From IMG/VR virus record IMGVR_UViG_3300042516_002692, positions 1-64,000 of that record: 64,000 nucleotides of DNA; one strand, 5' to 3'. The notes under the pieces were generated by a model. It made no database searches, had not been told where the DNA came from, and saw nothing but the letters and a program-made list of their open reading frames with translations. The DNA comes from a virus. This document shows, in pieces, positions 1,283 to 37,111 of the stretch. The number at the start of each line of letters is the position of its first letter. The first letter of the stretch is position 1. The translations under genes were made by a program, and so were the position numbers.

Positions 1283-1775
1283 GCTAAAGCTGGCAATCGA
1301 CAAAAAGGATTGGTCGCTTGTAATTGAATTTTACAAGCAACTAACGGGAATTAATCCAGATGGTCACGAGATGGTTCCGGTCCCAAGCAAGCCTCAGAAA
1401 GTTGCAGAGACTGGCCGGAAAAATGACTTTCAAGACTTTACAATGAGGCCAGTCCAGACCAACCTCAAAAAGGCCACTAAGGTCGAGAAGGCTGTTACTC
1501 CCAAAAAGCCGAAGCGTGGCGGGAAAAAGACCCCAGTAAAGGCGAAGCAAATTGAATTTGTCGACACTGGAGAGGCCCCAGACGAGCCGGGAGCAGACCA
1601 GATCAACGACAATGTTGCTTTGACCCCGAGAAACCGTAAGCCATTTAAGCCCGTAACAATGGAGTGCATTTTATGTAAGAGCAAAGAAACAGTTGCTCCT
1701 CTCTTCAAAAGAGACAAAGATACCTACAAGTGCAATAGTTGTCTGTCTAAAGGGAAAATAAATGGACCTGAGTAA
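1272..1775 (+). CDS. Small protein with C-terminal zinc ribbon
   Basis: The ATG at 1272 follows a purine-rich AAGAAGAG and overlaps the stop of the upstream gene; an upstream TTG (1254) lacks a comparable site. The 167-residue product has three parts: an N-terminal helix IDKLKLAIDKKDWSLVIEFYKQL, a long basic low-complexity linker rich in Lys and Pro (about residues 45-100), and a C-terminal CxxC...CxxC zinc ribbon (MECILCK, then YKCNSCL). The layout suggests an accessory protein that docks on a partner and binds nucleic acid, sitting between the recombination and helicase genes. I do not recognise the family. Its stop overlaps the helicase start. Confidence 0.75.
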   Translation: MIDKLKLAIDKKDWSLVIEFYKQLTGINPDGHEMVPVPSKPQKVAETGRKNDFQDFTMRPVQTNLKKATKVEKAVTPKKPKRGGKKTPVKAKQIEFVDTGEAPDEPGADQINDNVALTPRNRKPFKPVTMECILCKSKETVAPLFKRDKDTYKCNSCLSKGKINGPE

Positions 1776-3201
1776 TGTAGCTAGCGAGCGGGCAGTTTTA
1801 GCTGGCATATGCTCTCATGGGGTTGATTGCTACCTTGATACAGAGGCCTTCCTTGAGGAAGGCACATTCACTGTAGACTTTAATAAGGTGATGTACAAAT
1901 GCATAAAGCACATCATCAACAAGTCTGATAGGGTTGACTTTGTGTCGCTGCTCTCAGCCGCGACAGACTTGTCTCTTGGGGACTATGTTAACAAACCAGA
2001 TGTGCTGAAACATTTCAATGGGGTCTTGGCTACTCCAGTGGACGTCTCAAGTGTTCTAGGGCACGCTAAGAAGATTAGAAGACTTCAGTTCGCCCGCCAC
2101 TTGCAGGAAACCATCAAGGAGTCCTACAAGAGCCTCAATGAGATCTCTGGGGAAGAATCCCTCTCCGACATTATCGCTGTAGTTGATACCCCATTATCAA
2201 ATGCCTCTACTTCTTACATGAAGAAAGATGAGAACAAGCCCAAGCTCCTAGGCGAAATTGGCATGGATTATTTTGATTATCTCATGTCAGATGAGATTAA
2301 GCAAGTAGGCATTCCAAGCGGATTCCCATCCTACGATAAAGCTATTGGCGGTGGATTCCTGCGTAAGTGTGTTGATCTAGTCGGGGCGAGAACAAAAGGC
2401 GGCAAGAGTATTTTCTGCGAAAATGTGGCAGTACATGTAGCTGGTAAGCTTGGTATACCAGTACTTGTTTTAGATACAGAGATGTCTGAACTTGATCATA
2501 TCAATAGGTCTTGGGCCAACCTTTCCGGGATTGAGATCAACACTATTAAGCTTGCCGAATACAAGACTGATTTACAAGCTGTAGAACTTGTCAGATCAGC
2601 TAGAGACACTCTCAAGGGAATGCCATATCATTACATTAATGTCTCTGGAAAGGGGTTCGACGAAATTCTCTCGATAGCTCGAAGGTGGGTTCTTAAAGAG
2701 GTGGGGTTTGAGCCAAGTGGAAGAACTAAAGATTGCTTAATAATTTACGACTATTTCAAACTGATGGATTCTTCTGGCTTATCACAGAACATAGCCGAGT
2801 TTCAGGCCATGGGCTTCCAAGCCACGAAGTTGCATAATTTCTGCGTTGAGCATGACGTGCCATGCTTGTCGTTCGTTCAGTTAAATAGGGATGGTATAGA
2901 CAAGGAATCAGCAGACGTAATATCTCAATCCGATAGAATTGGGTGGCTCTGTACTTCATTTACTATCCTAAAAGAGAAGTCGGTTGACGAGATCGCCGAT
3001 GATGGTCCAAAAAATGGCAATCGTAAGCTAGTACCAGTACTTTCAAGACATGGCCCCGGAATGACTGATGACGGTTATATCTGTCTCGAAATGAAGGGCG
3101 AATTAGCAAGGATGAGAGAAATTGGCACTGTTAGACGACTTTCTAGAAGTAAAGAGTTCCCAGAAAGACCTCCAGAGTCTGAAGGGGAAGCTGAAGGCTA
3201 A
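1762..3201 (+). CDS. dnaB: Replicative DNA helicase, DnaB-like
   Basis: A 479-residue RecA-fold hexameric helicase that unwinds DNA at the fork and partners with the primase encoded next. The N-terminal helical domain (about 1-110) is DnaB-like (SERAVLAGIC, then a YKCI tract). The ATPase domain has Walker A GARTKGGKS at 208-216, the catalytic-glutamate strand VLDTE at 236-240, Walker B LIIYDYFK at 326-333 and the sensor FVQLNRDG at 371-378, followed by an SDRIGW motif. Length is normal for the family (T4 gp41 about 475). The ATG at 1762 overlaps the upstream stop by 14 bases. The last 80 bases overlap the primase gene in another frame, so the two are probably translationally coupled. Confidence 0.95.
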   Translation: MDLSNVASERAVLAGICSHGVDCYLDTEAFLEEGTFTVDFNKVMYKCIKHIINKSDRVDFVSLLSAATDLSLGDYVNKPDVLKHFNGVLATPVDVSSVLGHAKKIRRLQFARHLQETIKESYKSLNEISGEESLSDIIAVVDTPLSNASTSYMKKDENKPKLLGEIGMDYFDYLMSDEIKQVGIPSGFPSYDKAIGGGFLRKCVDLVGARTKGGKSIFCENVAVHVAGKLGIPVLVLDTEMSELDHINRSWANLSGIEINTIKLAEYKTDLQAVELVRSARDTLKGMPYHYINVSGKGFDEILSIARRWVLKEVGFEPSGRTKDCLIIYDYFKLMDSSGLSQNIAEFQAMGFQATKLHNFCVEHDVPCLSFVQLNRDGIDKESADVISQSDRIGWLCTSFTILKEKSVDEIADDGPKNGNRKLVPVLSRHGPGMTDDGYICLEMKGELARMREIGTVRRLSRSKEFPERPPESEGEAEG

Positions 3202-4132
3202 GATCCCCGAAATCCTCAACTATTTTGGGGTCAGGACCTACCGCTCAGGACAACTATTGGTCTGTAACTGCCCCATCCACGCGGGTGACAACATAACGGC
3301 TTTCAACATCAACTCTGACATCACATCAGAGTACTGCGGTCGTTGGTTCTGTAATACTGCTGGGTGTCATAAGAAATATGGTGGGGATGTCCTAGGGCTC
3401 CTGAGGGGGCTCGCCACTATAAATGGCAACTTACCTTTTACTGAGGTGCTTAAGCTTGCTTCCACATTCTGCGGAGCGGAACAGGTCGACTATGTCTCTG
3501 ATGCTTTTAACGATATCGTTTTGAGGGACAAAGACAGGCCTAGCGGCCCGTCTAGGGAAGAAATTAGAAGTAAGCTAATAAGACCAGTAGACTTCTACAT
3601 AAAAAGAGGTTTCTCCTCTGAGATTCTTGACATCTTCGACGTTGGGATATGTAATGATCCTACGAAAGAGATGCATGGTAGAGTAGTATTTCCAGTTTAC
3701 GATCCAACTGGAAAAGTCTTTATCGGATGTGTTGGGCGAACCCTCATAAGTGCTCCAGATAAGTGGAAGAACCAAAAGGGATTTAAGAAATCTCACCACC
3801 TATATGGTTTATGGTTAGCTTTTCAGGCCATTTGCCAAGCGGGCCGGATTATACTAGTAGAGGGCCAAGGTGACGTGATTAGATTCCATCAGGCCGGGAT
3901 AAAGAACGCTGTTGGGATTTTCGGGTCACGCCTATCAGATCATCAGGAGCTTCTACTGCAGAAAACTGGGGTTACAAATGTGACCACTGTCTTTGATCGG
4001 GATGAAGCTGGAGATAAGTGCAGGGAAGATTGTAACAAGCTCAGTCGCCTATTCAACGTGAAACATGTTGTGCCCGACATCGACGATGTTGGAGAAATGT
4101 CAGTAGAAGAAGTTCAAAGGTTGAAATTATGA
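3122..4132 (+). CDS. dnaG: DNA primase (CHC2 zinc finger plus Toprim)
   Basis: A 336-residue primase that makes RNA primers for lagging-strand synthesis. The zinc-binding N-terminus carries C50-x2-H53 and C77-x4-C82, as in DnaG/T7 gp4 CHC2 fingers. The Toprim catalytic centre shows VEGQGD at 246-251 and DRDEAG at 292-297, the conserved Glu and DxD metal ligands. The start must be TTG 3122: a TGA closes the frame three codons earlier and no ATG or GTG precedes the zinc finger. No helicase domain is fused, in keeping with the separate dnaB-like gene it overlaps by 80 bases. It ends in TGA overlapping the ATG of the next gene (ATGA). Confidence 0.95.
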   Translation: MALLDDFLEVKSSQKDLQSLKGKLKAKIPEILNYFGVRTYRSGQLLVCNCPIHAGDNITAFNINSDITSEYCGRWFCNTAGCHKKYGGDVLGLLRGLATINGNLPFTEVLKLASTFCGAEQVDYVSDAFNDIVLRDKDRPSGPSREEIRSKLIRPVDFYIKRGFSSEILDIFDVGICNDPTKEMHGRVVFPVYDPTGKVFIGCVGRTLISAPDKWKNQKGFKKSHHLYGLWLAFQAICQAGRIILVEGQGDVIRFHQAGIKNAVGIFGSRLSDHQELLLQKTGVTNVTTVFDRDEAGDKCREDCNKLSRLFNVKHVVPDIDDVGEMSVEEVQRLKL

Positions 4133-4953
4133 CACAAATTGTTTGTATGGCCGGAAGCAAAGAGTCTGGTAAAACGACAGCGGCGAACTTCCTCCATGGG
4201 CATCTCTTGAAGCTCAATGAGGTCATAAAGGAATATGAGATCACCAAAGCTGGTGAGCTTAAGGTTAATACTCATTACATGAAAGATGGGGAAGTCAAGG
4301 AGGATATGGGGGTCTTAGACCTTTCCAGAAAGGACGATTTGTACGTTCAGTACGCCGATCAGAGGATTTGGCCATATGTGAAGATGTATAACTTCGCTGA
4401 TGCGTTGAAGGAGCTTTGCATCACAATGTTCGATATTTCCCATGAGCAGGCTTACGGCAGCTACAAGAATAGCTTGACTAAGCTGAAGTGGGAGAATATG
4501 CCGGGTGTCGCAAGCTCCACCCAAATCGAAGATTTGTCCTTATCGACTGAGGACCTAGAGAAGCTAGGTATTCAGTCACATAAGCCCGGCTTCATGACCG
4601 CTCGTGAAGTCCTCCAATTCGTCGGCACCGACATCTTCCGCCGCATGTACGAGCCAGTCTGGGTCAAGCTCCTCATGAACAAAATCAAAGCGGATTCTCC
4701 ACTTGTCGCCGTTATTGCTGATTGCCGCTTTGATAATGAAGCACAGGCAGTAAAAGATGAGGGCGGCACTATTGTGCGACTTACACGACGACCCACAAGA
4801 GACAACCATGCATCTGAAGATGGGTTCAAAGAATTCTCAGATTTCGACTTGGTTTTGGATAACGAGATTCTTGGCATCAAAGATGCAAATCAGCAACTGC
4901 TAGACTTCTTGGTTCAAAAGGGCCTTAACGAGTTCGTAGCAAAGGCTGAATAA
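4129..4953 (+). CDS. Deoxynucleoside monophosphate kinase
   Basis: A 274-residue P-loop kinase that phosphorylates dNMPs to dNDPs, feeding phage DNA synthesis. The P-loop GSKESGKTT is at residues 9-17. The LID/substrate region has GFMTAREVLQFVGTDIFR, followed by a strand VAVIADCRFDNEA and LTRRPTRDNHASED, which matches phage gp1-type dNMP kinases. There is a basic/acidic insert at about 35-75. The start ATG overlaps the primase stop; the end forms TAATG with the next gene, so the genes are coupled. The function is a confident family call; nucleotide preference cannot be read from the sequence. Confidence 0.88.
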   Translation: MTQIVCMAGSKESGKTTAANFLHGHLLKLNEVIKEYEITKAGELKVNTHYMKDGEVKEDMGVLDLSRKDDLYVQYADQRIWPYVKMYNFADALKELCITMFDISHEQAYGSYKNSLTKLKWENMPGVASSTQIEDLSLSTEDLEKLGIQSHKPGFMTAREVLQFVGTDIFRRMYEPVWVKLLMNKIKADSPLVAVIADCRFDNEAQAVKDEGGTIVRLTRRPTRDNHASEDGFKEFSDFDLVLDNEILGIKDANQQLLDFLVQKGLNEFVAKAE

Positions 4954-5996: not shown

Positions 5997-6300
5997 CGAC
6001 GATCAATGTGGGATCAAAAGATGTTCGGAGTATTTCGCCGACATATACATTAAAAAATGCAATGATGAAGCATGGAATTCTATTTTGGAACCTTGCGAGG
6101 ATCGCGACCCCACGCTCAATGAAGAAAAAGTCCTCGAAGAAAGCCATAAGATTTGGAATAAAAGAATTTCTAGAATACTTTGTCGAGCATATGGAGACGG
6201 GGTAATAAATAGCGAACAGCTTCATATTCTGACATCAGCATTCGATCCTTCGCAAGATCATAAGGTATACGGACCAAATTTCAATAAAGGATTCAAATGA
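5980..6300 (+). CDS. Small hypothetical protein
   Basis: This is about 106 residues from TTG 5980, which has GAGGT five bases upstream. A GTG at 5956 with GAAGG nine bases upstream is the alternative and would give 114 residues. Both starts lie inside the end of the nuclease gene. The product is charged, helical and contains four cysteines (CGIKRC, KKCN, EPCED) without an obvious zinc spacing. Its TGA overlaps the ATG of the exonuclease gene (ATGA), so it is translated as part of the operon. I recognise no family. Confidence 0.65.
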   Translation: MSQKINDDQCGIKRCSEYFADIYIKKCNDEAWNSILEPCEDRDPTLNEEKVLEESHKIWNKRISRILCRAYGDGVINSEQLHILTSAFDPSQDHKVYGPNFNKGFK

Positions 6301-6950
6301 ACTACGAGAATATAATCGTCCATGACCTTGAAACGACTGGTGTGGACACCAGCACGGCACAAATTGTACAGATCGGTGCTATCTGCGTCGACGCCAGAAG
6401 ACTTGAGATTATTGAAGGCAGCGAATTTGACGTCCTTATTAAGCCTTTGTATGGAGAAGAGTGTGCTAAAGCAGGTCTGCAAGAATTGACTGACGGAGCT
6501 ATTAATATCCACAAAAAGGGCCACGCTTTATTAGCAGAGAAGGGCGTAACCCTAGAAACTGGGCTATCTAACTTTGTTTCCTATGTGAACACTCATAACT
6601 ACGGGAAGACTAAGTGGAAAAGTCCAATCCCCGCTGGCTACAATATCAATGGGTATGATACCCCAATCCTGAAAAGAGATTTGGCAAGAACTGGACTATC
6701 TAGCCCATTCCACCCATCTATCTCAATCGACGTACTCCAATTAATGTGGATGTTCTTCGAAAATGATAAGAACGTAACCCGCCTATCCGCCGACTCACTC
6801 ATTAGAAAGCACATGGGATGGAAAGACAAGGGAGAATCCCACGACGCTCTCGGGGACGTAATCATGACAGCGGAAGTCCTCATTAAATCAATGCGACTAA
6901 TCCGCAAAGCCGTAGGTACTGTCAAGTTCGAAAATTGTTTCGCCCTCTAG
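6297..6950 (+). CDS. DnaQ-like DEDDh 3'-5' exonuclease
   Basis: A 217-residue stand-alone exonuclease of the RNase T/DnaQ superfamily. All ligands are visible: D10 and E12 in VHDLETTG (motif I), D121 in YNINGYDTPILKRD (motif II), and H182 with D187 in SHDALGDVIMTAEVL (motif III, the h-type DEDD). No polymerase domain is attached. It may proofread with a separate polymerase, or degrade ssDNA ends during recombination or host-DNA breakdown; the sequence does not decide. The ATG overlaps the preceding stop by four bases. Confidence 0.92.
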   Translation: MNYENIIVHDLETTGVDTSTAQIVQIGAICVDARRLEIIEGSEFDVLIKPLYGEECAKAGLQELTDGAINIHKKGHALLAEKGVTLETGLSNFVSYVNTHNYGKTKWKSPIPAGYNINGYDTPILKRDLARTGLSSPFHPSISIDVLQLMWMFFENDKNVTRLSADSLIRKHMGWKDKGESHDALGDVIMTAEVLIKSMRLIRKAVGTVKFENCFAL

Positions 6951-6967: not shown

Positions 6968-7408
6968 ATGGATATCCTCGAAAAATATGAAGCCCTTATA
7001 GCCGATCTTGCACACTCTCTCTATAGGAAGACCCACCTATATGACTTTAAAGACCTCTTCCAGATAGGTCTGCAATCGGCTATAAGGCTTGAAAAAAAGT
7101 TTGACCCAGTCAGGTCGCAGAGGAGTACATTCTTTACTCTCTGCGTTCGAAGAGATATGGTCAAATTTATCAAAAAGCATAACAAAGCTTTTACCAATAC
7201 AATCCTCCCAAGTGGGATTGGCTCAAGCGATGAGCTTCAGCTCTGGGAATCTCTACCTGATCTCTGCCCCGAAGATGCAGAGATGGTCAGGATGCTCTCA
7301 GAAGGCCACAGTAAAAGAGAAGTGGCTAGACGACTACAGCTACCACTGAAAGAAGTAAAAAATCGGCTAATCAAGGTTGGGGAGTTAATATGCTCAAAAG
7401 AGTGCTAG
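6968..7408 (+). CDS. Sigma-70-like transcription factor (region 2 plus HTH), candidate late sigma
   Basis: From ATG 6968 (GGAG at 6959-6962) the protein is 146 residues; an upstream TTG at 6935 has no ribosome site. Residues 26-70 read as sigma region 2: DFKDLFQIGLQSAIRLEKKFDPVR followed by STFFTLCVRRDMVKFIKK, matching the DL-Q-G-L-A...FD...FSTY...IR-A pattern and close in style to T4 gp55. Residues 105-140 (MLSEGHSKREVARRLQLPLKEVKNRLI) are a region-4-like helix-turn-helix. Regions 1 and 3 are absent. Such small sigma factors redirect host RNA polymerase to late phage promoters. Candidate target sites lie upstream of several structural genes here. The family call is fairly confident; the late role is inferred. 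Confidence 0.78.
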   Translation: MDILEKYEALIADLAHSLYRKTHLYDFKDLFQIGLQSAIRLEKKFDPVRSQRSTFFTLCVRRDMVKFIKKHNKAFTNTILPSGIGSSDELQLWESLPDLCPEDAEMVRMLSEGHSKREVARRLQLPLKEVKNRLIKVGELICSKEC

Positions 7409-16699: not shown

Positions 16700-16723
16700 T
16701 CCTTCCATTAGTCCTTCCAGTAG
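16691..16723. repeat. 12-bp tandem repeat at convergent gene junction
   Basis: TTCCATTAGTCC is repeated exactly at 16691-16702 and 16703-16714, followed by a partial copy TTCCAGTAG. The repeat holds the stop of the plus-strand gene (TAG in the first unit) and the final codons and stop of the minus-strand gene (TAA in the opposite direction). No hairpin terminator is present between the two genes. Confidence 0.85.
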
Positions 16724-17175
16724 CCAGCAGGACATGAATTAGCGGCCCAACTAGCTTTAGTGGGAGTATGACATCCACATTTCGTACATCTGTCTCCAGA
16801 CAGAAAAGGGCACGTACTGCAAACCTTCAGCCTCTCCTGCTTCGTTTCTTCTGATACATGGCTAAAGCCGCTTTTAGCATGTTGTTTTATCGCCGATCCT
16901 AGGTTTTTAGCTTGCTGCCACAGTGACGGCATACTATGGGGCTTCTCCAATGTCGGTGCGACTTGCGGAGACTCAATCGCTGGAATCGTAGTAGGCGATT
17001 CTTTTTTATTGCACTCAACAAATCTCTGGCCCGGACCACGACACTCTTCCCATCTGTTGAAATAGGCTGGACTATTTTGGCATAGCTTGTGCTGATGTGG
17101 AGATTTTTCGATCCCGTGCCTATTGCAAAAACCGGCAAGTGGACACGAGCAATCGGTCTTTTTGTTTTCTTCCAT
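16708..17175 (-). CDS. Two-zinc-finger protein, end of tail operon
   Basis: A 155-residue protein with a Cys/His module at each end. The N-terminal one (residues 9-32, beginning CSCPLAGFCNRH) follows C-x-C-x5-C-x2-H-x3-K-x7-C, exactly the spacing of the facing plus-strand gene. The C-terminal one (LKVCSTCPFLSGDRCTKCGC, then NSCPAGYW) is a common metal-binding motif seen in many phage and bacterial proteins. The linker is Pro/Ser-rich. It is the last gene of the late block; function unknown. A role in binding or folding the Cys-rich protein encoded just upstream is conceivable but unsupported. Confidence 0.7.
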   Translation of the reverse strand: MEENKKTDCSCPLAGFCNRHGIEKSPHQHKLCQNSPAYFNRWEECRGPGQRFVECNKKESPTTIPAIESPQVAPTLEKPHSMPSLWQQAKNLGSAIKQHAKSGFSHVSEETKQERLKVCSTCPFLSGDRCTKCGCHTPTKASWAANSCPAGYWKD

Positions 17176-17192
17176 ATCCTAAATCCTCTGGA

Positions 17193-20100
17193 TTACATTG
17201 CCTCTGTAATTGTCACATGAATTACTGAAGAATCACACTGAACATATCTAGTTGCATCTAGGCATCCACAATTATTGAGATAATCTTCGGTGTGGTCTCC
17301 CCTGCTGTCTGATGCCGAGTTGAATATCATGCATTCGTCAATATTAAGCTTCCATGAGTTTCCAAGTACGCTACATAGGGTTCGACTTGGACAACATCCT
17401 GTCTCGATAGGATATGGAATGTATAAATAATCACCGCACTTATACGCTGCTACGCTTATATTCCCATCACTGATGAACGGCTGACCACCAGATTCACAGT
17501 AAGTATATGCTCCAGCTATTGGTTGTGCCCTATCGCATGCGGAGCATCCAACTGGCTCGATAGTCTCTCCTATTTCGTAAGCGACCCCTCCTGACGATGT
17601 CATATATCCGTAATATGGAGCTGAATCTCTTACCGTTGCAGTATTTGCAGATCCACTAGCTGGGCCAGCACAACATGTGTCACATGGTGTAGTGCAATAA
17701 TCCACTATTCCTGTCCCAACGACTTCAGCATATATACCTCTGGATTTTGCTAGCGTTACACAGACCGACTGTGGAGCTAGTTCGTAATATCCAAGAATCC
17801 CTCCACAAGTGCTATCATTGCAGGTACAGGGAGGAGGTTTTATAAAGCCCCCGCAAGCAACACTTGGCACTCCATCTAGAACATATTCAAGTAAAGTTGG
17901 CGGATCTTGTAATAGGTCTCTCCTCCTCAAAACCGACTCGCAACATTCTACGTCCACCAATATTTTGAAGGGATTAAATAAGCAATTATCTTGTTCTGAA
18001 TAGGCAGATTTATCAAGATAATATCCCATACTGCTAAAGTTGTTAGCCAAAAAGGTCTTTGGGCTTCCGACACTAGCATCGATAGAAGACTGAGAATGTA
18101 GACTCATAATATGACAAGCATCGGAAACTATAGAACAACTTTTAGTATCTGATGTATATCTAAATAATGATGTATTCACACCTATTAACGGAAGATAATC
18201 TTCAACAGTGATTATTACGTCATCTAATCCAACATTTTCAGTTATAGAAGTTTTAGCTGTTTCGTCACAAGCATTGATAAATCTCGTATTTTCTGCTTCT
18301 AGTATTATGTCTGGCATTTCGTTAGTTTCAAAATCTTGATATCCAGTGTACCAGTCTCCTAAAACCAATGATGAATTAGATGTACAAAGTTGTAGAGCCC
18401 CAAATCTAGATACTTTAGTACCTACAACATATTTCCTTCTTGGAAAGAACATTTTATTACAATAAAAGTCACTTCCACACTCTGCATGATCTTGTAAGCA
18501 ACTATGGAATTTATTAGTCCAGTCTACCCCGAGTCTATTTGCTGGTGTGAAATATAAGCCAGTATCAAAAATAGCAGTACTACTATAGACTACTCCGGTC
18601 CCGCAAGGATTAGGAGGTGGACTGTTGTCTGTTTGATCTCCTAGATCAATGGCTGGAAAATATTTGTTACTAGGCACACCTGACTCATAGAATAGATTAA
18701 AATAATTCCACAGTCTGTCTTCGCCAGATGCTGGGGGTTCTCCTAAAATAAAATCTTGATTTGAATGGAGACCTTCTGAATAATGAGCATTGCAGACTCC
18801 CCTATATGACACAATGCCAGTTCCAGACATTTCTGGCTCAGAATAATATGCAGGAGTAACAGAGTCAGATGGGGTACAGAATGGGATCTCTACGCAAACA
18901 GTCCCAGTCCCAACTGGGTATCGATATGATCCTATCTGTTTAGGTTTACAGGATGATGCGGGCGTACCACCTACTATATGTTGCCAATTTCTAGGTCTGG
19001 TATGGTACTCTCTGGCCACGTATAGGTTAAAGACATCTCCTGTACACTCTATCTTGTTAACCACCATAACTTCTGGAAAACAGGATCTTAGATTAACCGA
19101 TACTCCACTATTCACATCACCAGACCAAGGGATTGGGTCTCCGCACGATCCAGCTTGAGCTGACTGATCATGACTACAATCTCCATCACAAGTAGATGGT
19201 ATTAGTGTTGTGCATACTAAATCGCCCTGACGTTCGCGATGTGGTTCTTCAAACTCATAGTAAACGCCAGTCGCTAGCATGTTGGGGCCAGTATGCCATG
19301 AACAAGCCGAATCAGCAATCAGATCTACTGGAGTAGACGCAAAATCAATTTCAGTATTCGAATTTATATAGACTGGGCCAATTGATCCATATTCTCCGGA
19401 ATAACTTACGGCTACCACCAGTCCAGTTGTCTCTATCCCGTAAAAATCACAGACTGTGCCAGTTCCATATACTAAAGTTTTTGCACCAGATATATCTATA
19501 AGGGTTTTTCTCATTAACTGTAAATTACAATTGCAAACACATGGATTTTGATATTCCGGCGGTATAAACGTAATTGTGTCACACTCATCACATACCACAG
19601 TTGGACAATCACAGGTTTCTACTGTGGGATTAGAGCATGCTGCACACGGAAAAAATGCTTGCTGGCCATAACTATTTGTACCGGCACATCCATATTCGCT
19701 AAAATATGTATTACACCCAAAAACCTTATTAGAGGCGAGACTTGACAAAACATCTGCTGGAGAATTTAAAACTCCTAACGACTTTAAGCTATCAATAAGG
19801 GGCTCAGGAATGATTTCAAAAATTTGCTCATTTCCACTCGGGACCAAAACAAAGCTTGCTTTCAGTTGTAGATCAGACGCAGCCGAAGGGAAATGATGGC
19901 CGCAGCCAGCATTTTCATACATTACATCTAAAACATTACTAGCCCCAGTAATTTGAGATAGGGTTAAGTAATTCCTTATAATCCCAGTAGCGTCTGGAGG
20001 TATTAAATGATCGTGAGCCCCCTCGCATGCTAACTTAAATGATGCATAGACAGAAAATCCGGGAGACCTAACCGTTGGAGCAGGCGTGAAATAATCATTC

Positions 20101-22781
20101 AGTCTATCCTGAGCACAATCTGGCACATTGATGTATGAGTTATTTATATTCCAAGTTGTCCATCCTGCAGAGATATTGCTTCCTCTGAGCTTTATATTCA
20201 TAAGATCAAATTGATTTGCTATGCACGAACACGTATTGCCAACGTACGAGCTTGTCAAATCTATTCCACTAACTAGTCCGTCACATGGTACACCAAATCC
20301 AGTCTCACATGAGTATGTTGGATCAAAGTTGGTCCCCTTATAAGTGCAATGATTCCATCCATACTTTTCTCCTCTAGCATGAGAGAAACTGGTATTTAGC
20401 CCAGCGGTTTCTAATATTAGGTCAGTTTGTGCAGCCTCAATGCTTCCGCATCCGACACAATCATCTGTATGATCAATCTCCACCAAGAATGGAACTTTGT
20501 CTGTCGGCCATCCACTGGCTCTGGTTGAGCAAAGATCAAAATCTAAGTATGGATACTCAGGAGGGGGTCCATCACACGCCAGTCCATAAGCAATAGCTGG
20601 CTTGGGTCGGAAGTACGGCGATACTACTCTTCCCTGACTATCAGAAACTCCCCAGAATGGATAATTTCCTGATGCAGAGAACCCTCCTACCTGTCCACTT
20701 TCTAGTGTATATGGATTATTGAATTGCCAATACATGGGTTGAGGATCTGTGGGAGCTACTCCAGTATTCCTATAATCCCCGGCTTGTACTAAGTTCGCAA
20801 ATGCAGAGGTGATTACCTCTCTACGATCATGATATTCATTTCCGCAAAGATTACGAATGAAACCATAGGTAGTATATGGCTGCTTGGGAAGACAAGCATA
20901 ATCTGATGACGGGATAGGGCACTCACTTAAGCTTCCCCCTTCACATTCTGACGCCCATTTATATTGCCACAATATGTCATTACATCCGTAATCCTCGGGA
21001 TACAGGTCAAACTTTGGGAATGTTGGAAAGGTAACAGGAGATGGAACTTCGACAAAAATAGGATCTCTGAGACCCGGTGGAACATCGTCTCCACAGCCGC
21101 AGACGTCTTGTGGTTTGGTCTTAGGCCCCCACACGTTTGAGAGATTGATGTACATATAAATCTCTTGACCAGACAACCCCTTTCTTAAGTCTTCTACCCC
21201 CGTAGGGGCAAAATATGGGTGTCCTGATTCACTATATGTGCAACCATCATCGAAATTACAGCCACGATAAACAATGGCTAATCTACTAATCATATTAGTA
21301 ATTTGTTTGTATGGCCCATCACATTCTTGAAATCTTTCGGAATACTGAGTAATACAATCTGGGTATACCGATAATGAGGCCTTCTTACTGTAGCAAGTCC
21401 CATTATTTCCTTGGGTTTTGTTATATTTTCCATCTACCCGAACGGACGTATCATATTTGTCTATGTCAAAGAATGCCCCATAGTATGGGTGCTCTTGTGA
21501 GAATACCGGATAACCACTCTCAAGAAGTACACCAGTCTCAGTCACATCTGGAATGGTTTTGTTGACCCTAAACGAGTTGGCGGGATTGATCTGGCTAGTG
21601 GTCCCCAACCCGTATGTATATCTATTTTCTGGGAACCTATTGGCCTGAAGCTTGTTTTTATTATTATTGAAAATTCGGCCAAGATCTGAGTGATAGTTTT
21701 TGACACTATTGGGCCTTTTGGTGTCATTCGATATGTTGTGGGCTGCTCCACCGCAACACGTATTCGGGTCTGACGTTCCAAGGGCCGACCAGCGGTGCCC
21801 AGTTTCTAATACCTCGCCACTACCCAACGTGCCAACAACCTTACAGTCGGTTACCCCACTTGAGTGAGTCACTCCAAAGACTCTGTATCCCCCATCTAGA
21901 TATGAGCCATATACACCAAGAGCCATACCATCGGCTATGCCCGAAGCCACTCCACTATTATAGATTAAACCTAAATGAAGGAAGTCTTCGATCCCACCAC
22001 TTCGGTAAACATAAGCTTCTCCTTTATATAAAGACGGAATTGATCCATCTTGGACGCAGCCCCGCTCTCCCGATACACGGATCTGGAATGGGTCATATTC
22101 TAGGCCAAAATTATCACCTCTCAGAATCTCTTGTTTCGGAGAACCATCACACTCCGAAACTACGCTAGAGTCCATATAGATATTGTCATAGCATACGTCT
22201 TGTGATATGTATCTCCAAGCCCCAGTCTTGTTCTTAAAGATGGTGTCCGTAGTTGAGATTTTGGTCCCATAGCCGAAATTTTCTGGGAACTTCTTGTATA
22301 CCTTGGTAGGATCTGATTGGTCGCATGATTCAAGATCTGAAGTGGCCGTACCGGCCCTATCAATCAGGTAAACCTCAGCCCCACCACGCTCTATGTCATC
22401 CCTAGTGGCACCGTTATAGTGTTTCAGCCCAGAAAATTCATCGGCAGTAGGATCGTCTGGGTCGTAAACGGACCTATATAGTACGTCTGGTCGTTGTTCG
22501 TCTCTAAATGGACCCTGAACTGGCCCTAGAGTACCGCATTGCTTGGTGGCGAAGTGTAGCTCATCATACCCATCGAAGAAGTCGTAGTGGCCATTTGAGA
22601 AGATGGCTGTGCCACTTGTTAATACGTTGCCACTTCCATCATTGAAGCCCCAGAAGGTAGGATTGGCAATAACTCTGATCTTGAGCTGCTTCGGTAAAGA
22701 GATAGTGCCGTCCTGACCACAGAACTGGTCATTGATGCAGTTTCTGCTACATTCGTAGCACCCAGATAGCATATCGGCCAT
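17193..22781 (-). CDS. Giant cysteine-rich tail protein, unknown
   Basis: A 1,862-residue protein, the longest after the tape measure, with about 90 cysteines by hand count (near 5 percent). Many are paired as CxC or CxxC (CDCPTVVCDEC, CVCNCN, CTCNDSTC, CNKM). Proline- and glycine-rich segments and repeated words such as SG(V/T)GxV and YxxSG are present, but there are no clear long repeats, signal peptide or catalytic motif. It is the last large gene of the tail-tip set, so a host-facing adhesin or tail fibre is the best inference. The cysteines suggest either disulfide cross-linking after release or many small metal sites. The ATG is at 22781; the 137 bases upstream are described separately. 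Confidence 0.75.
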   Translation of the reverse strand: MADMLSGCYECSRNCINDQFCGQDGTISLPKQLKIRVIANPTFWGFNDGSGNVLTSGTAIFSNGHYDFFDGYDELHFATKQCGTLGPVQGPFRDEQRPDVLYRSVYDPDDPTADEFSGLKHYNGATRDDIERGGAEVYLIDRAGTATSDLESCDQSDPTKVYKKFPENFGYGTKISTTDTIFKNKTGAWRYISQDVCYDNIYMDSSVVSECDGSPKQEILRGDNFGLEYDPFQIRVSGERGCVQDGSIPSLYKGEAYVYRSGGIEDFLHLGLIYNSGVASGIADGMALGVYGSYLDGGYRVFGVTHSSGVTDCKVVGTLGSGEVLETGHRWSALGTSDPNTCCGGAAHNISNDTKRPNSVKNYHSDLGRIFNNNKNKLQANRFPENRYTYGLGTTSQINPANSFRVNKTIPDVTETGVLLESGYPVFSQEHPYYGAFFDIDKYDTSVRVDGKYNKTQGNNGTCYSKKASLSVYPDCITQYSERFQECDGPYKQITNMISRLAIVYRGCNFDDGCTYSESGHPYFAPTGVEDLRKGLSGQEIYMYINLSNVWGPKTKPQDVCGCGDDVPPGLRDPIFVEVPSPVTFPTFPKFDLYPEDYGCNDILWQYKWASECEGGSLSECPIPSSDYACLPKQPYTTYGFIRNLCGNEYHDRREVITSAFANLVQAGDYRNTGVAPTDPQPMYWQFNNPYTLESGQVGGFSASGNYPFWGVSDSQGRVVSPYFRPKPAIAYGLACDGPPPEYPYLDFDLCSTRASGWPTDKVPFLVEIDHTDDCVGCGSIEAAQTDLILETAGLNTSFSHARGEKYGWNHCTYKGTNFDPTYSCETGFGVPCDGLVSGIDLTSSYVGNTCSCIANQFDLMNIKLRGSNISAGWTTWNINNSYINVPDCAQDRLNDYFTPAPTVRSPGFSVYASFKLACEGAHDHLIPPDATGIIRNYLTLSQITGASNVLDVMYENAGCGHHFPSAASDLQLKASFVLVPSGNEQIFEIIPEPLIDSLKSLGVLNSPADVLSSLASNKVFGCNTYFSEYGCAGTNSYGQQAFFPCAACSNPTVETCDCPTVVCDECDTITFIPPEYQNPCVCNCNLQLMRKTLIDISGAKTLVYGTGTVCDFYGIETTGLVVAVSYSGEYGSIGPVYINSNTEIDFASTPVDLIADSACSWHTGPNMLATGVYYEFEEPHRERQGDLVCTTLIPSTCDGDCSHDQSAQAGSCGDPIPWSGDVNSGVSVNLRSCFPEVMVVNKIECTGDVFNLYVAREYHTRPRNWQHIVGGTPASSCKPKQIGSYRYPVGTGTVCVEIPFCTPSDSVTPAYYSEPEMSGTGIVSYRGVCNAHYSEGLHSNQDFILGEPPASGEDRLWNYFNLFYESGVPSNKYFPAIDLGDQTDNSPPPNPCGTGVVYSSTAIFDTGLYFTPANRLGVDWTNKFHSCLQDHAECGSDFYCNKMFFPRRKYVVGTKVSRFGALQLCTSNSSLVLGDWYTGYQDFETNEMPDIILEAENTRFINACDETAKTSITENVGLDDVIITVEDYLPLIGVNTSLFRYTSDTKSCSIVSDACHIMSLHSQSSIDASVGSPKTFLANNFSSMGYYLDKSAYSEQDNCLFNPFKILVDVECCESVLRRRDLLQDPPTLLEYVLDGVPSVACGGFIKPPPCTCNDSTCGGILGYYELAPQSVCVTLAKSRGIYAEVVGTGIVDYCTTPCDTCCAGPASGSANTATVRDSAPYYGYMTSSGGVAYEIGETIEPVGCSACDRAQPIAGAYTYCESGGQPFISDGNISVAAYKCGDYLYIPYPIETGCCPSRTLCSVLGNSWKLNIDECMIFNSASDSRGDHTEDYLNNCGCLDATRYVQCDSSVIHVTITEAM

Positions 22782-22789
22782 TGTATGTC

Positions 22790-22918
22790 CTAATCAGCCA
22801 GAAGATTGCTGGCTATGTTCCTAAGTTTATTTATGAATTTTTCATATGCTAATTGCGGTGAAGATTCTTTTAATTTATCACGTTCATTTGAAATAAGTAA
22901 TAAGTAATAAGTAATAAA
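22790..22918 (-). other. Open frame in phase behind TGA of the 554-residue tail protein
   Basis: Directly after the TGA of the upstream gene the same frame stays open for 42 codons and ends at TAG 22790-22792. Its end, NERDKLKESSPQLAYEKF then INKLRNIASNLLAD, looks like a charged helical protein rather than noise. There is no ATG, GTG or TTG in this frame. It may be a decayed C-terminus, a read-through extension or a separate peptide with a rare start. Confidence 0.3.
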
Positions 22919-22919
22919 T
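22892..22919. repeat. AATAAGT heptanucleotide tandem repeat
   Basis: Three exact AATAAGT units (22892-22912) and a fourth partial unit (AATAAAT) lie immediately behind the stop codon of the 554-residue tail protein. Seven-base units change the frame when gained or lost, but here the copies fall after the stop. Confidence 0.8.
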
Positions 22920-24583
22920 CAAAAGGCGTTCGATAGGGCTGTGTCCTCGCCACACCACTCACAAGATTTAAAGCCTTGGCTCTGAATCTTTACGCTACAA
23001 GTCTGCAGCAGTCCTCCATCACAAGCCACATGGGTAACAACTTGTTGCGTTTTATATTCAGAATTCATGATCCAGTGAATATCGAGGCTCTCAGTCTCTA
23101 CAGTCGCATTGGTAGGATAAATAGACACCGAGTAAGTCTTGCTACGTGGAAACCCACTATTTGGACTCACAGTCCCTGTAGTCATAACTCCGTCAGTAAA
23201 TGATAAAGAAACCGAGGCACATATACCTGAATTAATTATACCAAATCCCCCATAGGTATATCCACTTCCACCATTAGCCACCTGAAAGACTGCAATACCA
23301 GAGGAGTTGGTCACCACATTCCCCGAGGCCCCAACGCCGGAGCCCCCAACAAAACTCCCAGTATTCACATTCTTGGATCGGCCAGTTTTCATAGTGAAAC
23401 AAAGATCTCCAGTATCCAAGTTTTGCTTAAGAGGGTTCTCAATCAAAATCTTCTTATTTACTGATGCAGTTCCGTGTCCCCCTATTCGATCACCAGATGG
23501 GCATGGGTTGGACACATGTCCACAATCTTGACAATCTTCATTCCAAATATTATAGTAGGCCTGACCGACATCATCAATAGTTTCTCTGATGATAAAGGCC
23601 TCGTAGTGCGGGAACTCAAGCCCAGTATAGTCTAATTGTTCATAGGTGCCAACGTTATTAGGATTACCAGTATACGCAACATATTCTGGATCATAAATTA
23701 CTCCAGTAGATGAGAATTGCCTCATCATCTCTGGACCTGATCTGGTGAACTGGTCCCTCGAATTACTTCGTTCAACCTCATAAGAAAAGTTTGGCGGATT
23801 GTAGGTATTCGTAACTTTTGATAAGAAGACCTTGGTAGAAGTCCCAGCACTCCAGACGGCTCTGGATTGGTCCCAGCGAACGTCCAGAGGGCCAGTTTTC
23901 CAGAGGGAAGGATTCGAGTAAGCCTGAGGATGCATCGCACCATCAGCCCCCGTGGGGACCGGATTCCCGTCAATATCGTAGCCGGGGCCACTAAGGATAA
24001 GTGGGGCTCTGTGGGCTATGCTCCTAATATCAAGTAGTTCTGTCTTCTTTCTATAGTAGAAATCAGCATCAAAATAATGATCTGATGGATGTACTCCAGA
24101 CTCTATAGAGTTGTCTGTGCTATATTTACTTGAAGTAATTGCTGCAAGTATGTTGTGACCTCCAGAAGCCCACACATCCTGATTGTAAGTTCCGCTATCA
24201 GTAATTCCAGTCGATAATATTCCAGTACCAAACATATTCGACGGGTTAAATGGATTTAAAGAATTTACATTAACTACTCCTTCCCCGCTCTCTGTAGGAC
24301 TTTCAAAATGTGGCAACGATCCAGTATGCTCAATGTGAGTAGAATATGGTACAAATAAACCATCTAAACTTATAGCTCCAACTCTATCTAGCATATCTTT
24401 ATTGCCAGAAGAATTTATCAATCTTGTATACTGATCGAAATAGTTAGAGTCTACAAACGACGTATAAAAATTAAAAAAGTTTTGTCTATCTGTTCCACTG
24501 GCTAATGCGTCTCCACTAGATCTAACAAAGTCTACAGCCGTAGATACTATAAACTGTGGCCTACCTATTAAGTCCCTTTCCAT
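22919..24583 (-). CDS. Tail-tip structural protein, unknown
   Basis: A 554-residue protein without a recognised family. It starts at ATG 24583, which shares a base with the stop of the upstream tail gene. It is rich in Ser, Gly, Asn and Tyr with many SG and TG pairs, as in the neighbouring tail proteins, and carries several CxxC pairs (CQDCGHVSNPC, CEWCGE near the end). Position directly ahead of the giant Cys-rich protein and behind the tail-hub-like proteins suggests a tail-tip or fibre component. The C-terminal CxxC pair recalls the metal sites of the giant protein. Confidence 0.7.
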   Translation of the reverse strand: MERDLIGRPQFIVSTAVDFVRSSGDALASGTDRQNFFNFYTSFVDSNYFDQYTRLINSSGNKDMLDRVGAISLDGLFVPYSTHIEHTGSLPHFESPTESGEGVVNVNSLNPFNPSNMFGTGILSTGITDSGTYNQDVWASGGHNILAAITSSKYSTDNSIESGVHPSDHYFDADFYYRKKTELLDIRSIAHRAPLILSGPGYDIDGNPVPTGADGAMHPQAYSNPSLWKTGPLDVRWDQSRAVWSAGTSTKVFLSKVTNTYNPPNFSYEVERSNSRDQFTRSGPEMMRQFSSTGVIYDPEYVAYTGNPNNVGTYEQLDYTGLEFPHYEAFIIRETIDDVGQAYYNIWNEDCQDCGHVSNPCPSGDRIGGHGTASVNKKILIENPLKQNLDTGDLCFTMKTGRSKNVNTGSFVGGSGVGASGNVVTNSSGIAVFQVANGGSGYTYGGFGIINSGICASVSLSFTDGVMTTGTVSPNSGFPRSKTYSVSIYPTNATVETESLDIHWIMNSEYKTQQVVTHVACDGGLLQTCSVKIQSQGFKSCEWCGEDTALSNAF

Positions 24584-27500
24584 TATTTATTCCTTAATGT
24601 GTTAGATATTTTTCTTAATTGCTTTAGTAGTTCTTTACTACTTTTACCAACTCTTGGGGACAAAGTCCTAAAATTATATGTAGTACTAACTTCACTGTTA
24701 TTAAAGCTTATACTTATATCTGTTATTCTCGGACCATTTAACAAAGTTTGACCAACACGCTGTATTATAGGCAAACCTTTTAAGGTTAAATTACCTTCTT
24801 CTTGAGCGAACAAAGAAAAATCATCAATACTATTTGCAATAGCTTGTCCAGCTAGATTCATTCCAGCAAAACCAGATAATGATGTGCCCTTAACTGATTC
24901 TATATTTCTACTTACACTCCCATCAGAATCTACTATTTGCCAATTTGTATTTATTGTTCCATATACAGGTATCATAAAGTTTTCAGGAACTAATTCTTCA
25001 TCTTGTTCATACTCAAATTTTCCACAATATATAGTTTCAGAAAAATTTGTTATCCAAGGCCCATATACGTACCTATTAGATTTTTGTGGTATACCAATAG
25101 ATCTTGGAGATACTGCTGGTCTAGAAACACAATTACTACCAAAGTTGTCTCCAAATTCCTTAAATCTAGATTCTGGTATTAGCGATAATGATTTTTCCTT
25201 AATCAGATCAGAAATGTCGTCAACATATTGTCCAGATAGTGGATTAACTCCAGAATGCTGAAAACTAGACGGATAATATACTGGTTCAGTCGTAAATTTT
25301 ATAAAAGGTAATCCAGAGCCAGTGTCATTAGCTGGGTTATTTTTAATTCCATACAAAATATCTTTTAGGGCAGTCCCTGAATAATGAAAAGAAAAATGCG
25401 CAGTATAATTAATATCTGCTGGTTCTACAAGATTTAAATATACTACTTTATTATTTTGATCAAAACTTTGCAGTACTTGAGTATAATATCCAGAAGAATG
25501 CACATTATGGCTGAATATTCCAGATGGCGGTGTATATACGGTCGTATAACTATACTGAGATTGATTAGCCTTTTCTATAGAAATAGCTGATTGTGTATTA
25601 TTCGCTGAAGCAAAATCTTTTGCTCCTGCATTACTCATAACATTATTAGGTAATAAACTTTCATCTTGCCTGCTGACAGTTTTTCCTGAAAAATTATATG
25701 TATACATATAATAGCTTCCAAGATTTCCTTCAACAGCAGATCCTAACCCATTACTTTCGGCTTCAAAAAACGGACAATGCCCCCTGTTGTAATAGCTGAA
25801 ATATTGAGATGGAATAAATAGATATTTTTCAGATATCTCAGGCGAGGTATACGCCATTCCTACTTTTGCGCATGCTCCAGATGCAGATGGATCAAGATCA
25901 AAAACTGTATTATCGCCATGTTCAGAAAAGTCAAATTTATACTTTACACCAGACGCGAATCCGGATATGTCTCCAGTTAATAATCCATAAACAAGATCAT
26001 CGCTTCCACCAGCAGTAAAAGAATGCTCAAAACTAGCAAATGGTTTCAGTTTACCATCTTCTATAAACTTTGAGTCTTTTGGAGCCTCTATTTCGTCAAA
26101 AGCATATGGTTCTACATATGCAGAAGAGCTTACGTCCCAAGACCTGACAAAGTTACCAACTAAGCTCTGATTGTCTTGGGTCAATTTTGTCTTAAAGACA
26201 GGAATTGGAGCTACCCAACTTTTTCCATAGTGCGTGTCCCCAATGTCTTTCACTTTTTCCCAGATCTTTTTTATCGTATCGTCATCTTCTGGAAATGAAA
26301 AATCCACCTGAGAAGTATTAGCACTTCTCAAGCCTCTAAACGCCATATATTTAGCAACAGTCGCGACGGCGGATTTAAAAGTCTCATTGTTAATTTGATT
26401 AAGTCCACCACCACTCAATACCATCCACTTATGAGGCTTTATGGAAGACATGAACTCTTCCCAAGATTCATAGGAGCACATAGCAGCTCTTATCTCTAAC
26501 ATACTGGCAAAATAAATACCATCATAGCAGACACCTGTAATAGTTTTGCTGGAAAAAATATGCTGCATATCTATAGCCACCCAATCCCATATGTCATTGG
26601 GGGGGAGTGTCTGAGTTATTATTGGGATTGATTTTTGTGAGCTTGAGGTTATACCGCACGCATCACCAGACGATGTAACTAGAGTTATTTCTCCCCAATA
26701 TTGATATATGAAATCTCTTGGTACAACATTCATTCTAGTCTGAAATCCACCAACAACCATTTTGCCCACAGTTGGATTGGTTGACTTTAGTGATAGGCTT
26801 AAATTTATTGGCCTATTTGTTATATTATTAAGTATTTGATATGGGGTTGGAGTTACTGGAAAACTCCCTCCATATGGAGAAGATCCTTCTGCTCCTCTTC
26901 TACTATAATCTAGATCTAATGGATTTATAAATCTCCCATCATTTTGCGGAGCTATACCGGGATTTATGCTGCCAAGAGTTCCATAGTCTCCAGTGTCTGG
27001 TTTTTCAAGATTCAATAAGTCATAAGTGAATTGACTAAATGGCTTATTGCATGTTACATATTGACTTCTTGGAATAAGCAGAATGGAAATTATACCACCG
27101 AAAACTGAATTTGGATACGTCTGACTCATAGATGCTGCAAATGCACCATCCTTATAGCTATAATCATTTAGTTCTACTATGAAATCAGCACTTATGGTAT
27201 CGCATATTATGGAAATAAATTCAGCAATTGAAATAGATGGACCGGGAATTACAAAATCTTCAGGAAGATAATTCAATGCCTGAGAAGTAAATCCTATGAT
27301 ATCAAATCCATAGTAAAATGGATATGGGGGAACGTATCCATTGGCCGTACCACATATATTGTATGTGTTGGCTCCATACATTAAATTACCACCTATATAT
27401 CTTCTTGGCGAGGAAGATTCGGTCCTATTAACTATCTCATCAATAGCATAAGCTATTTTGTCTACCCTCATTCCAGAAGTTACACTTGAAGCTCCAAATC

Positions 27501-28143
27501 CAGCAAAAGGCACTATCGCAAGAGAATTACCATTTGAATCTACCCACTCGTTTTCATATGCAGCAAAAACATTTATTAGATTATATAACCTATTCCACAT
27601 TCCAGTAAAAGACAGATTAGCGTTATTGGTTGCGAATGAGAATTGAGCAGTTTCAAAATAGCTTACTGTTGGAGTCATACTAACTCCATCTGGAATATAT
27701 CCCGGTTGTTTATCTGAGTCTTCAATCTGATAATATCCGTCATCAGAGAAGTATCTAGGAAGCCCTTCTAGAGCAGACCCATATCCTGTGTACCCATCAA
27801 TAATTAGCGTAACTGCTTCCAATATCTTAAGCGGGCTTAGTAGCTCCACTCTGTAAAATTTGCCCTCTGGACTTGAATCTCTAGTGACAGACTCAAGAAT
27901 TCCATTGAATCCAAATATAGTCGCAGAATTATAATCTACGATCTTAAAAAAATATGGAGATCCAATTACTCCGGGAGAGAATACATCGCCATCTGTATCG
28001 TCAACTATTAGATCTATAGAGCATGATCCGGGTTGAGACGAGAAATCTGCCGAACAATTGAAGCTAGCTACAGTACATCCCATAAATTTTTGAACTGGGA
28101 TACTAGATTCAATTCCAGAACCAAATGGTAAAATATTTTCCAT
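24583..28143 (-). CDS. Large tail hub/tip protein, putative
   Basis: A 1,186-residue protein. The first 130 residues (GCTVASFNCSADFSSQPGSC, then SIDLIVDDTDGDVF, GSPYFFKIVDY, FGFNGILESVTRD and YRVELLSPLKILEAVTLI) show the layered beta pattern seen in tail-hub and tail-associated proteins just downstream of the tape measure. The remainder is Ser/Tyr/Gly-rich and unassigned. It would sit at the distal end of the tube and connect it to the receptor-binding proteins. No peptidase motif is visible. The local base composition is more AT-rich than in the head genes. Confidence 0.65.
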   Translation of the reverse strand: MENILPFGSGIESSIPVQKFMGCTVASFNCSADFSSQPGSCSIDLIVDDTDGDVFSPGVIGSPYFFKIVDYNSATIFGFNGILESVTRDSSPEGKFYRVELLSPLKILEAVTLIIDGYTGYGSALEGLPRYFSDDGYYQIEDSDKQPGYIPDGVSMTPTVSYFETAQFSFATNNANLSFTGMWNRLYNLINVFAAYENEWVDSNGNSLAIVPFAGFGASSVTSGMRVDKIAYAIDEIVNRTESSSPRRYIGGNLMYGANTYNICGTANGYVPPYPFYYGFDIIGFTSQALNYLPEDFVIPGPSISIAEFISIICDTISADFIVELNDYSYKDGAFAASMSQTYPNSVFGGIISILLIPRSQYVTCNKPFSQFTYDLLNLEKPDTGDYGTLGSINPGIAPQNDGRFINPLDLDYSRRGAEGSSPYGGSFPVTPTPYQILNNITNRPINLSLSLKSTNPTVGKMVVGGFQTRMNVVPRDFIYQYWGEITLVTSSGDACGITSSSQKSIPIITQTLPPNDIWDWVAIDMQHIFSSKTITGVCYDGIYFASMLEIRAAMCSYESWEEFMSSIKPHKWMVLSGGGLNQINNETFKSAVATVAKYMAFRGLRSANTSQVDFSFPEDDDTIKKIWEKVKDIGDTHYGKSWVAPIPVFKTKLTQDNQSLVGNFVRSWDVSSSAYVEPYAFDEIEAPKDSKFIEDGKLKPFASFEHSFTAGGSDDLVYGLLTGDISGFASGVKYKFDFSEHGDNTVFDLDPSASGACAKVGMAYTSPEISEKYLFIPSQYFSYYNRGHCPFFEAESNGLGSAVEGNLGSYYMYTYNFSGKTVSRQDESLLPNNVMSNAGAKDFASANNTQSAISIEKANQSQYSYTTVYTPPSGIFSHNVHSSGYYTQVLQSFDQNNKVVYLNLVEPADINYTAHFSFHYSGTALKDILYGIKNNPANDTGSGLPFIKFTTEPVYYPSSFQHSGVNPLSGQYVDDISDLIKEKSLSLIPESRFKEFGDNFGSNCVSRPAVSPRSIGIPQKSNRYVYGPWITNFSETIYCGKFEYEQDEELVPENFMIPVYGTINTNWQIVDSDGSVSRNIESVKGTSLSGFAGMNLAGQAIANSIDDFSLFAQEEGNLTLKGLPIIQRVGQTLLNGPRITDISISFNNSEVSTTYNFRTLSPRVGKSSKELLKQLRKISNTLRNK

Positions 28144-28152
28144 ACGTCTTTC

Positions 28153-36038: not shown

Positions 36039-36059
36039 GACTACTCCACATAAAAGTTA

Positions 36060-36842: not shown

Positions 36843-37080
36843 GATCTCTCCTAAGTGGCATAAAGTAAACTGTCTTGTATTTGATATCGTACCCGTCTAA
36901 ATCCCGTTCCAATTCCCTGATCTGAAAATGGCCCTTGTCCAAAATGTCTTTTCTTAGTCCTTCATATTCATCCTCCTCAAAAATTTCTTTGAACTCTTCC
37001 AAACTTGCAAGAGCCCCAATCATTGTTGTCATGATGCGTTTCCGCACCGCCTGATAAAGTTGTACTGCCCCGTTTCCCAT
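36832..37080 (-). CDS. Small protein between chaperone-like genes
   Basis: An 82-residue protein with ATG 37080 behind GAGGTT (spacing about 6) and a stop that overlaps the next gene by 11 bases. It has a helical N-terminus (VQLYQAVRKRIMTTMIGAL), an acidic middle (EEFKEIFEEDEYEGL) and a basic C-terminus. No family recognised. Position between the two paralogous chaperone-like genes suggests a tail-assembly role. Confidence 0.6.
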   Translation of the reverse strand: MGNGAVQLYQAVRKRIMTTMIGALASLEEFKEIFEEDEYEGLRKDILDKGHFQIRELERDLDGYDIKYKTVYFMPLRRDHGK

Positions 37081-37111
37081 TTTTAACCTCTCAATCCTTG
37101 TTGAGGCAAAT

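Follow-up and report, generated by a model that had tools for sequence, protein, structure and literature searches.

A small sigma-factor candidate from the replication block of a metagenomic phage and the short promoter motif that it may read

Introduction

Does a phage known from viral metagenomes carry its own sigma factor, and which of its promoters would such a factor serve? The question is raised by a short open reading frame, here called s1, which the first-pass annotation had read as a small sigma factor with region 2 and a helix-turn-helix (HTH) end and had linked to a phage-directed late transcription switch. To our knowledge, phage sigma factors beyond a few model phages have rarely been tied to promoters. 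A literature search on phage-encoded sigma factors combined with late promoters and ECF, or of the SPO1 type, found nothing, which is no proof of being unpublished. The analysis described here leads to the view that s1, a minimal sigma factor from the replication operon, probably takes the host RNA polymerase to promoters of the form (G/A)CGTATWWA. The phage group thereby offers a two-domain sigma candidate together with a predicted cognate promoter of the -10-only kind, a pair amenable to in vitro tests on a standard core enzyme, with no need of the host. If the view is correct, s1 would be notably small for a complete sigma factor and would come with a portable orthogonal promoter system; if two further sigma-like proteins of the phage, s2 and s3, also work, a sigma cascade would be present in one phage.

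The phage genome

The window, the whole stretch of DNA that was analysed, consists of bases 1 to 64,000 of a 74,611-base viral record. A second record, G001 (139,854 bases), is identical to it over 71 kb, and the two join to a genome of 143.4 kb (joined phage F); the gene order of the related phage G002 suggests that about 12-13 kb are missing between the ends of the joined sequence. The replication genes and the small early genes run mostly in one direction and the structural genes in the opposite one (Table 1). A bacterial-type RNA polymerase beta gene is absent from all four records searched, with a positive control in 14 of 14; the control of a PF00940 search for a single-subunit RNA polymerase gave no signal. 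The terminase is distantly similar (23-24% identity) to those of Bacillus phages Slash and Staley and of Microcystis phage MaeS.

Other features of the genome deserve a mention. Beside the terminase, the gene at 63265-63798 (-) is Band_7/SPFH-like, at 22.4 of 23.6 bits (E 1.4e-4) just below the Pfam cut-off. Tail-fibre-like genes at 44110-51986 (-) have common repeats of 73-150 bases with 78-88% identity, and in G001 (24041-27683, -) there are DNA polymerase III alpha-like ORFs with stretches that look intein-like by eye.

Table 1. Features discussed in the text; positions are those of the window unless another record is named.
Feature	Position	Strand	Remarks
DnaB-type helicase	1762..3201	+	PF03796, E 2.8e-15; replication block
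Deoxynucleotide monophosphate (dNMP) kinase	4129..4953	+	PF21448, E 2.2e-14; replication block
Exonuclease	6297..6950	+	RNase_T, PF00929, E 5e-12
s1, predicted compact sigma-70-family factor	6968..7408	+	region 2 at about aa 1-76, short linker, region-4 HTH at about aa 84-146
Structural block	16708..63798	-	every called gene of at least 60 aa on the - strand
Promoter-like element GCGTATAAATA	39380..39390	-	42 bases ahead of the 402-aa structural-block gene 38140-39348
Promoter-like element GCGTATTTACT	42772..42782	-	31-32 bases ahead of the 51-aa ORF 42595-42750
Promoter-like element GCGTATTTAAA	59083..59093	-	24-25 bases ahead of gene 57749-59068; conserved in G011
Weaker promoter-like element TCGTATTAAAT	61153..61163	-	47 bases ahead of the ATG of gene 59121-61115; CGTATTA kept in G011
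s2, weaker sigma-like candidate	65918-66367 (window's record)	-	GTG start, 149 aa, second ORF of the late operon
s3, sigma-like ORF, weaker candidate	52796-53275 (G001)	-	early

A two-domain sigma-70-family protein

Read from its ATG, s1 encodes 146 residues, and GGAG stands 5 bases 5' of this codon by eye; an alternative TTG start 33 bases upstream would give 157. Residues 5-72 match the Pfam model of region 2, PF04542 (Sigma70_r2), with 28.8 bits (E 1e-6), above its curated cut-off of 24 bits, which is exceeded in nine of nine records; the match to sigma families for which the first-pass annotation had looked to a profile search was thus obtained. The sigma70-ECF model TIGR02937 of NCBIfam (E 5.7e-8) and the sigma factor family PHROG 351 (E 3.5e-5) match as well, the former being a superfamily model with a curated cut-off of 42.9 bits, below which s1 (32.6 bits) and its orthologues (31.4 and 37.6) all fall. 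By sequence alone region 4 is weak (PF08281, 12.9 bits against a cut-off of 25.7, E 0.089). The TIGR02937 alignment is almost whole-length for the orthologues in records L005 and L006, and in L005 it joins residues 3-133 to profile positions 9-156 of 165 (E 1.6e-9).

The predicted structure gives more on the second domain. An AlphaFold model built from an alignment of eight sequences, of only fair confidence (mean pLDDT 64.7), shows three long helices, followed by a linker of low confidence and a helical HTH at the C-terminus. Titles identify 49 of the best 50 listed Foldseek matches as sigma factors or initiation complexes and the remaining one as an RNA-guided transcription complex; ECF structures are numerous at the top, and the matches include AlgU, CnrH and WhiG, which we take to be sigma factors. 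The scores are modest, with E at or below 0.001 for one match only and TM-scores over the query of 0.31-0.45. Residues 84-146 superpose on sigma-4 domains (3vfz, 1.7 A over 60 residues; 4cxf, 2.0 A over 63). Single-domain VIA-align rows, at 1.7-3.7 A, fit residues 1-77 to domain 2 of sigma factors and residues from about 81 to 146 to their domain 4; the rmsd of whole-length rows is large. In no row does Z exceed 9.7, which lies in a range (below about 13) that can reflect an arrangement common in helical proteins. The s2 model, in contrast, has a confidence similar to that of s1 and no credible fold match.

The domain 2 match stops at about residue 72-76 and domain 4 begins at about 81-87, which leaves no space for regions 1 or 3, as had been noted on first reading. 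The model helices, at their fair confidence, and the domain matches thus describe a protein of domains 2 and 4 only, as in ECF sigma factors. Overall, the profile and fold matches support the placement of s1 in the sigma-70 family, with region 2 and a region-4 HTH, and bear out its earlier description as a small sigma factor. It is very likely a working sigma factor, for which core binding and transcription start are predicted, and it most likely falls in the known class of phage sigma factors.

Conservation and neighbourhood of s1

Eight relatives of s1, with 66-100% identity, were found in viral contigs, and a search with an alignment as query gave 11 loci. Relatives were seen in viral metagenomes only: among 84,980 species genomes 54 candidate stretches were obtained and none was confirmed, and a search of 50,697 phage records gave no match better than E 0.1. 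The gene is under purifying selection (dN 0.02-0.30 against dS from 0.40 to saturation), and s1 is not a chance ORF, since relatives exist and dN lies under dS. Both domains are kept, and a stretch of region 2 that we take to be core-binding is nearly invariant.

The neighbourhood is equally constant. When a repeat of the window's phage (G001) and a record with 29 residues of s1 (L049) are left out, the exonuclease gene stands directly 5' of s1 in ten of ten distinct records, which include the near-identical copies G005-G008, and a glycosyltransferase-like gene follows 3' in nine, the tenth record ending there. The earlier placement of s1 within a replication block holds: the exonuclease, dNMP kinase and DnaB-type helicase genes lie on its strand (Table 1), and the block also encodes a toprim primase and a PD-(D/E)XK nuclease. 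Downstream, a long series of glycosyltransferase- and sugar-enzyme-like genes is seen by eye at 7390-16699 (+), with a UDP-galactopyranose mutase-like ORF at 13993-15075.

Two promoter classes in separate territories

Promoters of class one, of the host sigma-70 type, were defined as TTGACA-16/18-TATAAT with at least 11 of 12 matches. Of 26 such sites in joined phage F, 18 are + strand sites within the early block (66.5-104 kb), for which 0.5 are expected on both strands (12 simulated sequences). The structural - strand and the replication block each have none; the + (antisense) strand of the structural block has four against 1.0 expected, and the rest of the genome four against 1.25. Five partial relatives (G004, G005, G007, G009 and G010) have four sites altogether, two of which represent one conserved site that heads the replication cluster.

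This conserved promoter lies near the cluster head at F 143321, G002 64303, G005 34560 and G010 10737. Its -10 hexamer lies between the arms of an inverted repeat (ACCTCCGAGG..TATAAT..CCTCGGAGGT; the repeat of F is imperfect), in what would be the loop, and T-rich sequence follows; the arrangement is a candidate for promoter, operator or terminator in one. Inverted repeats of 5-6 bp also occur within the spacers of early sigma-70 promoters with at least 10 of 12 matches: 6 of 30 in F (+ strand, 76983-102096, outside the window), 4 of 20 in G002 (3190-21938) and 4 of 20 in G011 (19640-25982). Shuffled spacers give means of 0.2-0.4 and at most 3, and control sites elsewhere 1 of 84. The stems vary from promoter to promoter. 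Two orthologous pairs stay paired despite changes on both sides (GATGGC-GAA-GCCATC / GCTAGC-GAA-GCTAGC and GCAGCA / GCAACA), and other orthologous stems appear broken in one phage.

The second class is defined by (G/A)CGTATWWA, of which GCGTATWW was first noticed by eye in the late region of the window's own phage, before an unbiased word count was made. In the noncoding upstream sequence of five genomes, GCGTATT is the top-ranked 7-mer (10 against 0.68 expected, p 3.4e-9, uncorrected for 16,384 words), and it again ranks first in the own phage alone (6 against 0.39, p 3.6e-6). Among 6-mers, CGTATT and GCGTAT are both outranked by AAATAA in the pooled set, as is GCGTAT by CGAAGC in the own phage. 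CGTATT favours the gene's strand over the opposite one by 7:1, 6:1 and 7:1 in three genome sets; opposite-strand GCGTAT in the own phage is also over expectation (3 against 1.21). When a weight matrix was trained on five sites of the own phage and applied to five other genomes, it found nine same-strand upstream sites against 0.99 expected, with three on the opposite strand; five of the nine precede ribonucleotide reductase (RNR), one a 209-aa gene, and one (G004 26057) probably a mis-called start. In G002 and G011 the matrix finds nine sites against 0.87 expected, two on the opposite strand, partly orthologues of the training sites; the pooled motif counts likewise include orthologues. Out of 2248 letter-shuffled motifs, three equal the own-phage count, one of them overlapping the motif, and seven equal that of the relatives.

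The repeated promoter-like elements reported earlier ahead of structural genes were borne out, with sites of the motif at 39390, 42782 and 59093 and, weaker, at 61163. Within the first, which overlaps the stop codon of the preceding gene, GCGTATAAAT is conserved in G002, G007 and G010. The second is not kept at the equivalent place in G002, and an alternative GTG start at 61151 would put the fourth directly against the start codon. A further element at 66549, just outside the window, precedes the first late-operon ORF (57 aa), immediately before s2. Of 11 records, 7 include the start of RNR, G005 and G007 among them near-identical, and the element (RNR site GGGCGTATTAAT) lies 38-40 bases upstream in all seven, including G002, whose RNR is a distant form; RNR was identified by Pfam in G002 (E 3.5e-163) and in the other six by similarity to it. 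The 209-aa gene carries the element in F, G002, G005 and G010. The element lies mostly about 25-70 bases ahead of start codons, and no -35 partner was seen by eye at 24 listed sites. The motif is missing ahead of many structural genes, and some CGTAT sites precede genes without a late or replication role.

Three own-phage sites in or beside the early genes precede ORFs that resemble mobile endonucleases by eye, with a Pfam nuclease match for none of the three. Further, two DUF7487 proteins, at 54564-56159 (-) and F 88234-89346 (+), one with a DUF559 nuclease-like part, are possibly mobile endonucleases, and both genes have a promoter-like element upstream, weak for the former. In T4, homing endonucleases borne by introns are transcribed from middle or late promoters of their own and seven free-standing ones appear promoter-less (PMC2988022), for which reason the parallel is loose.

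It could be argued that the motif belongs to a leader or a signal for translation, or that its sites are a collection of chance occurrences, and that s1 regulates something unseen. Several motif sites are indeed followed about 18-31 bases on, near the ribosome site, by a word like CTTTTTACTGG(AG), as at 39355-39370 (-) and in leaders of G005, G007, G009 and G010, so that a single RNA element might span the leader, and TTTTACT is enriched too (13 against 2.67). However, the distance between the two words varies, the second word is missing from the sites at 42782 and 59093, the matrix also performs in genomes held out of training, and sigma-70 promoters are absent from the motif's territory; such a reading is highly improbable. 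Another candidate promoter box, CTTTTTACTG, was set aside: its enrichment is only mild, and tracing the frame upstream by eye places the copy at 535 within coding sequence.

The split of the promoter classes by territory supports, at the level of sequence, a phage-directed switch of transcription. This much of the proposed late switch stands, and the word late is too narrow, the motif being found also before RNR in seven of seven records with its start; in phiEco32-type phages, too, a single sigma serves both middle and late genes (PMC4331800).

Which factor reads the motif

In the model that we favour, the host enzyme would first read the early genes from ordinary TTGACA/TATAAT promoters. The s1 protein would then be made from the replication operon and most likely replace the host sigma on the host RNA polymerase core, and the polymerase that bears it would be directed to the -10-type element (G/A)CGTATWWA. 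Class-two promoters would drive the structural genes, the first late-operon gene, RNR and possibly some mobile genes, and the RNR promoter, which precedes the replication genes, would provide feedback to the s1 gene, located downstream on the same strand. That s1 reads CGTATWWA is likely, the two being tied only by co-occurrence; we infer s1, rather than s2, s3 or a host sigma, as the reader, and equally its binding to the host core and the timing.

Some bacterial ECF sigma factors, such as sigma-W of Bacillus, typically recognise CGTA in the -10 element. It could thus be a host alternative sigma that reads CGTATT, with s1 in another role, such as that of a sigma-like co-activator or of a decoy bound to RNA polymerase, and the weak sequence match of its region 4 would fit. 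Against this stand the near-invariant core-binding stretch of region 2, the retention of both domains and the purifying selection, and we regard a host reader as decidedly improbable.

SPO1 runs a cascade of phage sigma factors, and s1 may be one step of a cascade, because two weaker sigma-like ORFs lie in the same phage. In a division of labour of this kind, s1 would serve the middle (replication) genes and s2 the late ones, or the reverse, with s3 acting earlier. Some of the evidence points this way: s2 matches PF04542 (E 0.0047 in a single-genome search) and TIGR02937 (E 0.0033), its model has a helix order resembling that of s1, in G002 the orthologue of s3 is matched by TIGR02937 (residues 24-148, E 1.3e-4), and the motif at 66549 lies before the 57-aa ORF that directly precedes s2. 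The ORFs s2 and s3 are each kept in a second phage (93% and 84%), having been found in the two best-covered phages only, the other records being partial. However, s2 reaches 12.3 of 24 bits, far under the PF04542 cut-off, and its best fold match has E 0.8, with the first sigma chains at E 2.0; s3 itself has no NCBIfam match and, in Pfam, only a sub-threshold HTH. The sigma assignment of both is weaker than that of s1, which has no credible alignment to the profile of either. Moreover, one motif is common to the middle and late sites, which suggests one reader. A division of labour of this sort is therefore unlikely, and a fuller scheme is a little more doubtful still, in which three sigma-like proteins of fewer than 160 residues, mutually non-aligning and one per block (s3 early, s1 replication, s2 late-operon head), would form a cascade from sigma-70 promoters, about one fifth with spacer DNA hairpins, to CGTATT promoters.

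Comparison with known systems

In domain content s1 resembles the ECF sigma factors, which normally lack regions 1 and 3, so that the lack of these regions in s1 is not unusual by itself. Like them, s1 has domains 2 and 4 only, and sigma70-ECF is its best named sequence profile; it differs in being 146 residues long, under the curated family cut-off and phage-borne. An RpoD-like protein of Synechococcus phage ACG-2014f aligns with the s1 family in region 2 (46 columns, hhalign E 7e-7, probability 92; tblastn against s1, E 0.1), but it has 230 aa and strong RpoD-family matches, and only part of region 2 is alignable. A match in Sinorhizobium phage phiM12 sits in a DUF2828 protein and is taken as spurious.

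T4 gp55 serves a short -10-only late promoter, TATAAATA (PMC1524935), and one site of the window reads GTATAAATA. The T4-like box shows no excess: the window has 4 copies where simulation gives 3.85, and the joined phage 8 where it gives 6.66 (100 simulations each). The kinship to gp55 hinted at in the first-pass annotation was not borne out by a weak test of one gp55 against eight sequences (hhalign E 0.043 over 9 columns, probability 1.2). A DnaN-type clamp (PF00712) was not found in six of six partial records, a further difference from T4.

The strategy of phiEco32 and 7-11 offers a parallel. In these phages, host sigma-70 promoters serve the early genes and one short phage motif the middle and late ones; that of phiEco32, tAATGTAtA, lies 6-8 bases before the start (PMC4331800, PMC4281155). 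It is unlike the CGTATT motif, and gp36 of phiEco32 (214 aa) was tried and rejected as kin of s1 (hhalign E 0.28 against the window family). The strategy itself is seen here in the form of sequence patterns only, with a non-sigma-70 motif before middle and late genes and sigma-70 sites mainly early, and in the record table the sigma genes of phiEco32 and 7-11 stand near dNMP kinase and exonuclease genes, as does s1. It is because this layout is that of phiEco32 and 7-11 that s1 is considered very likely to be a working sigma factor and likely to read CGTATWWA.
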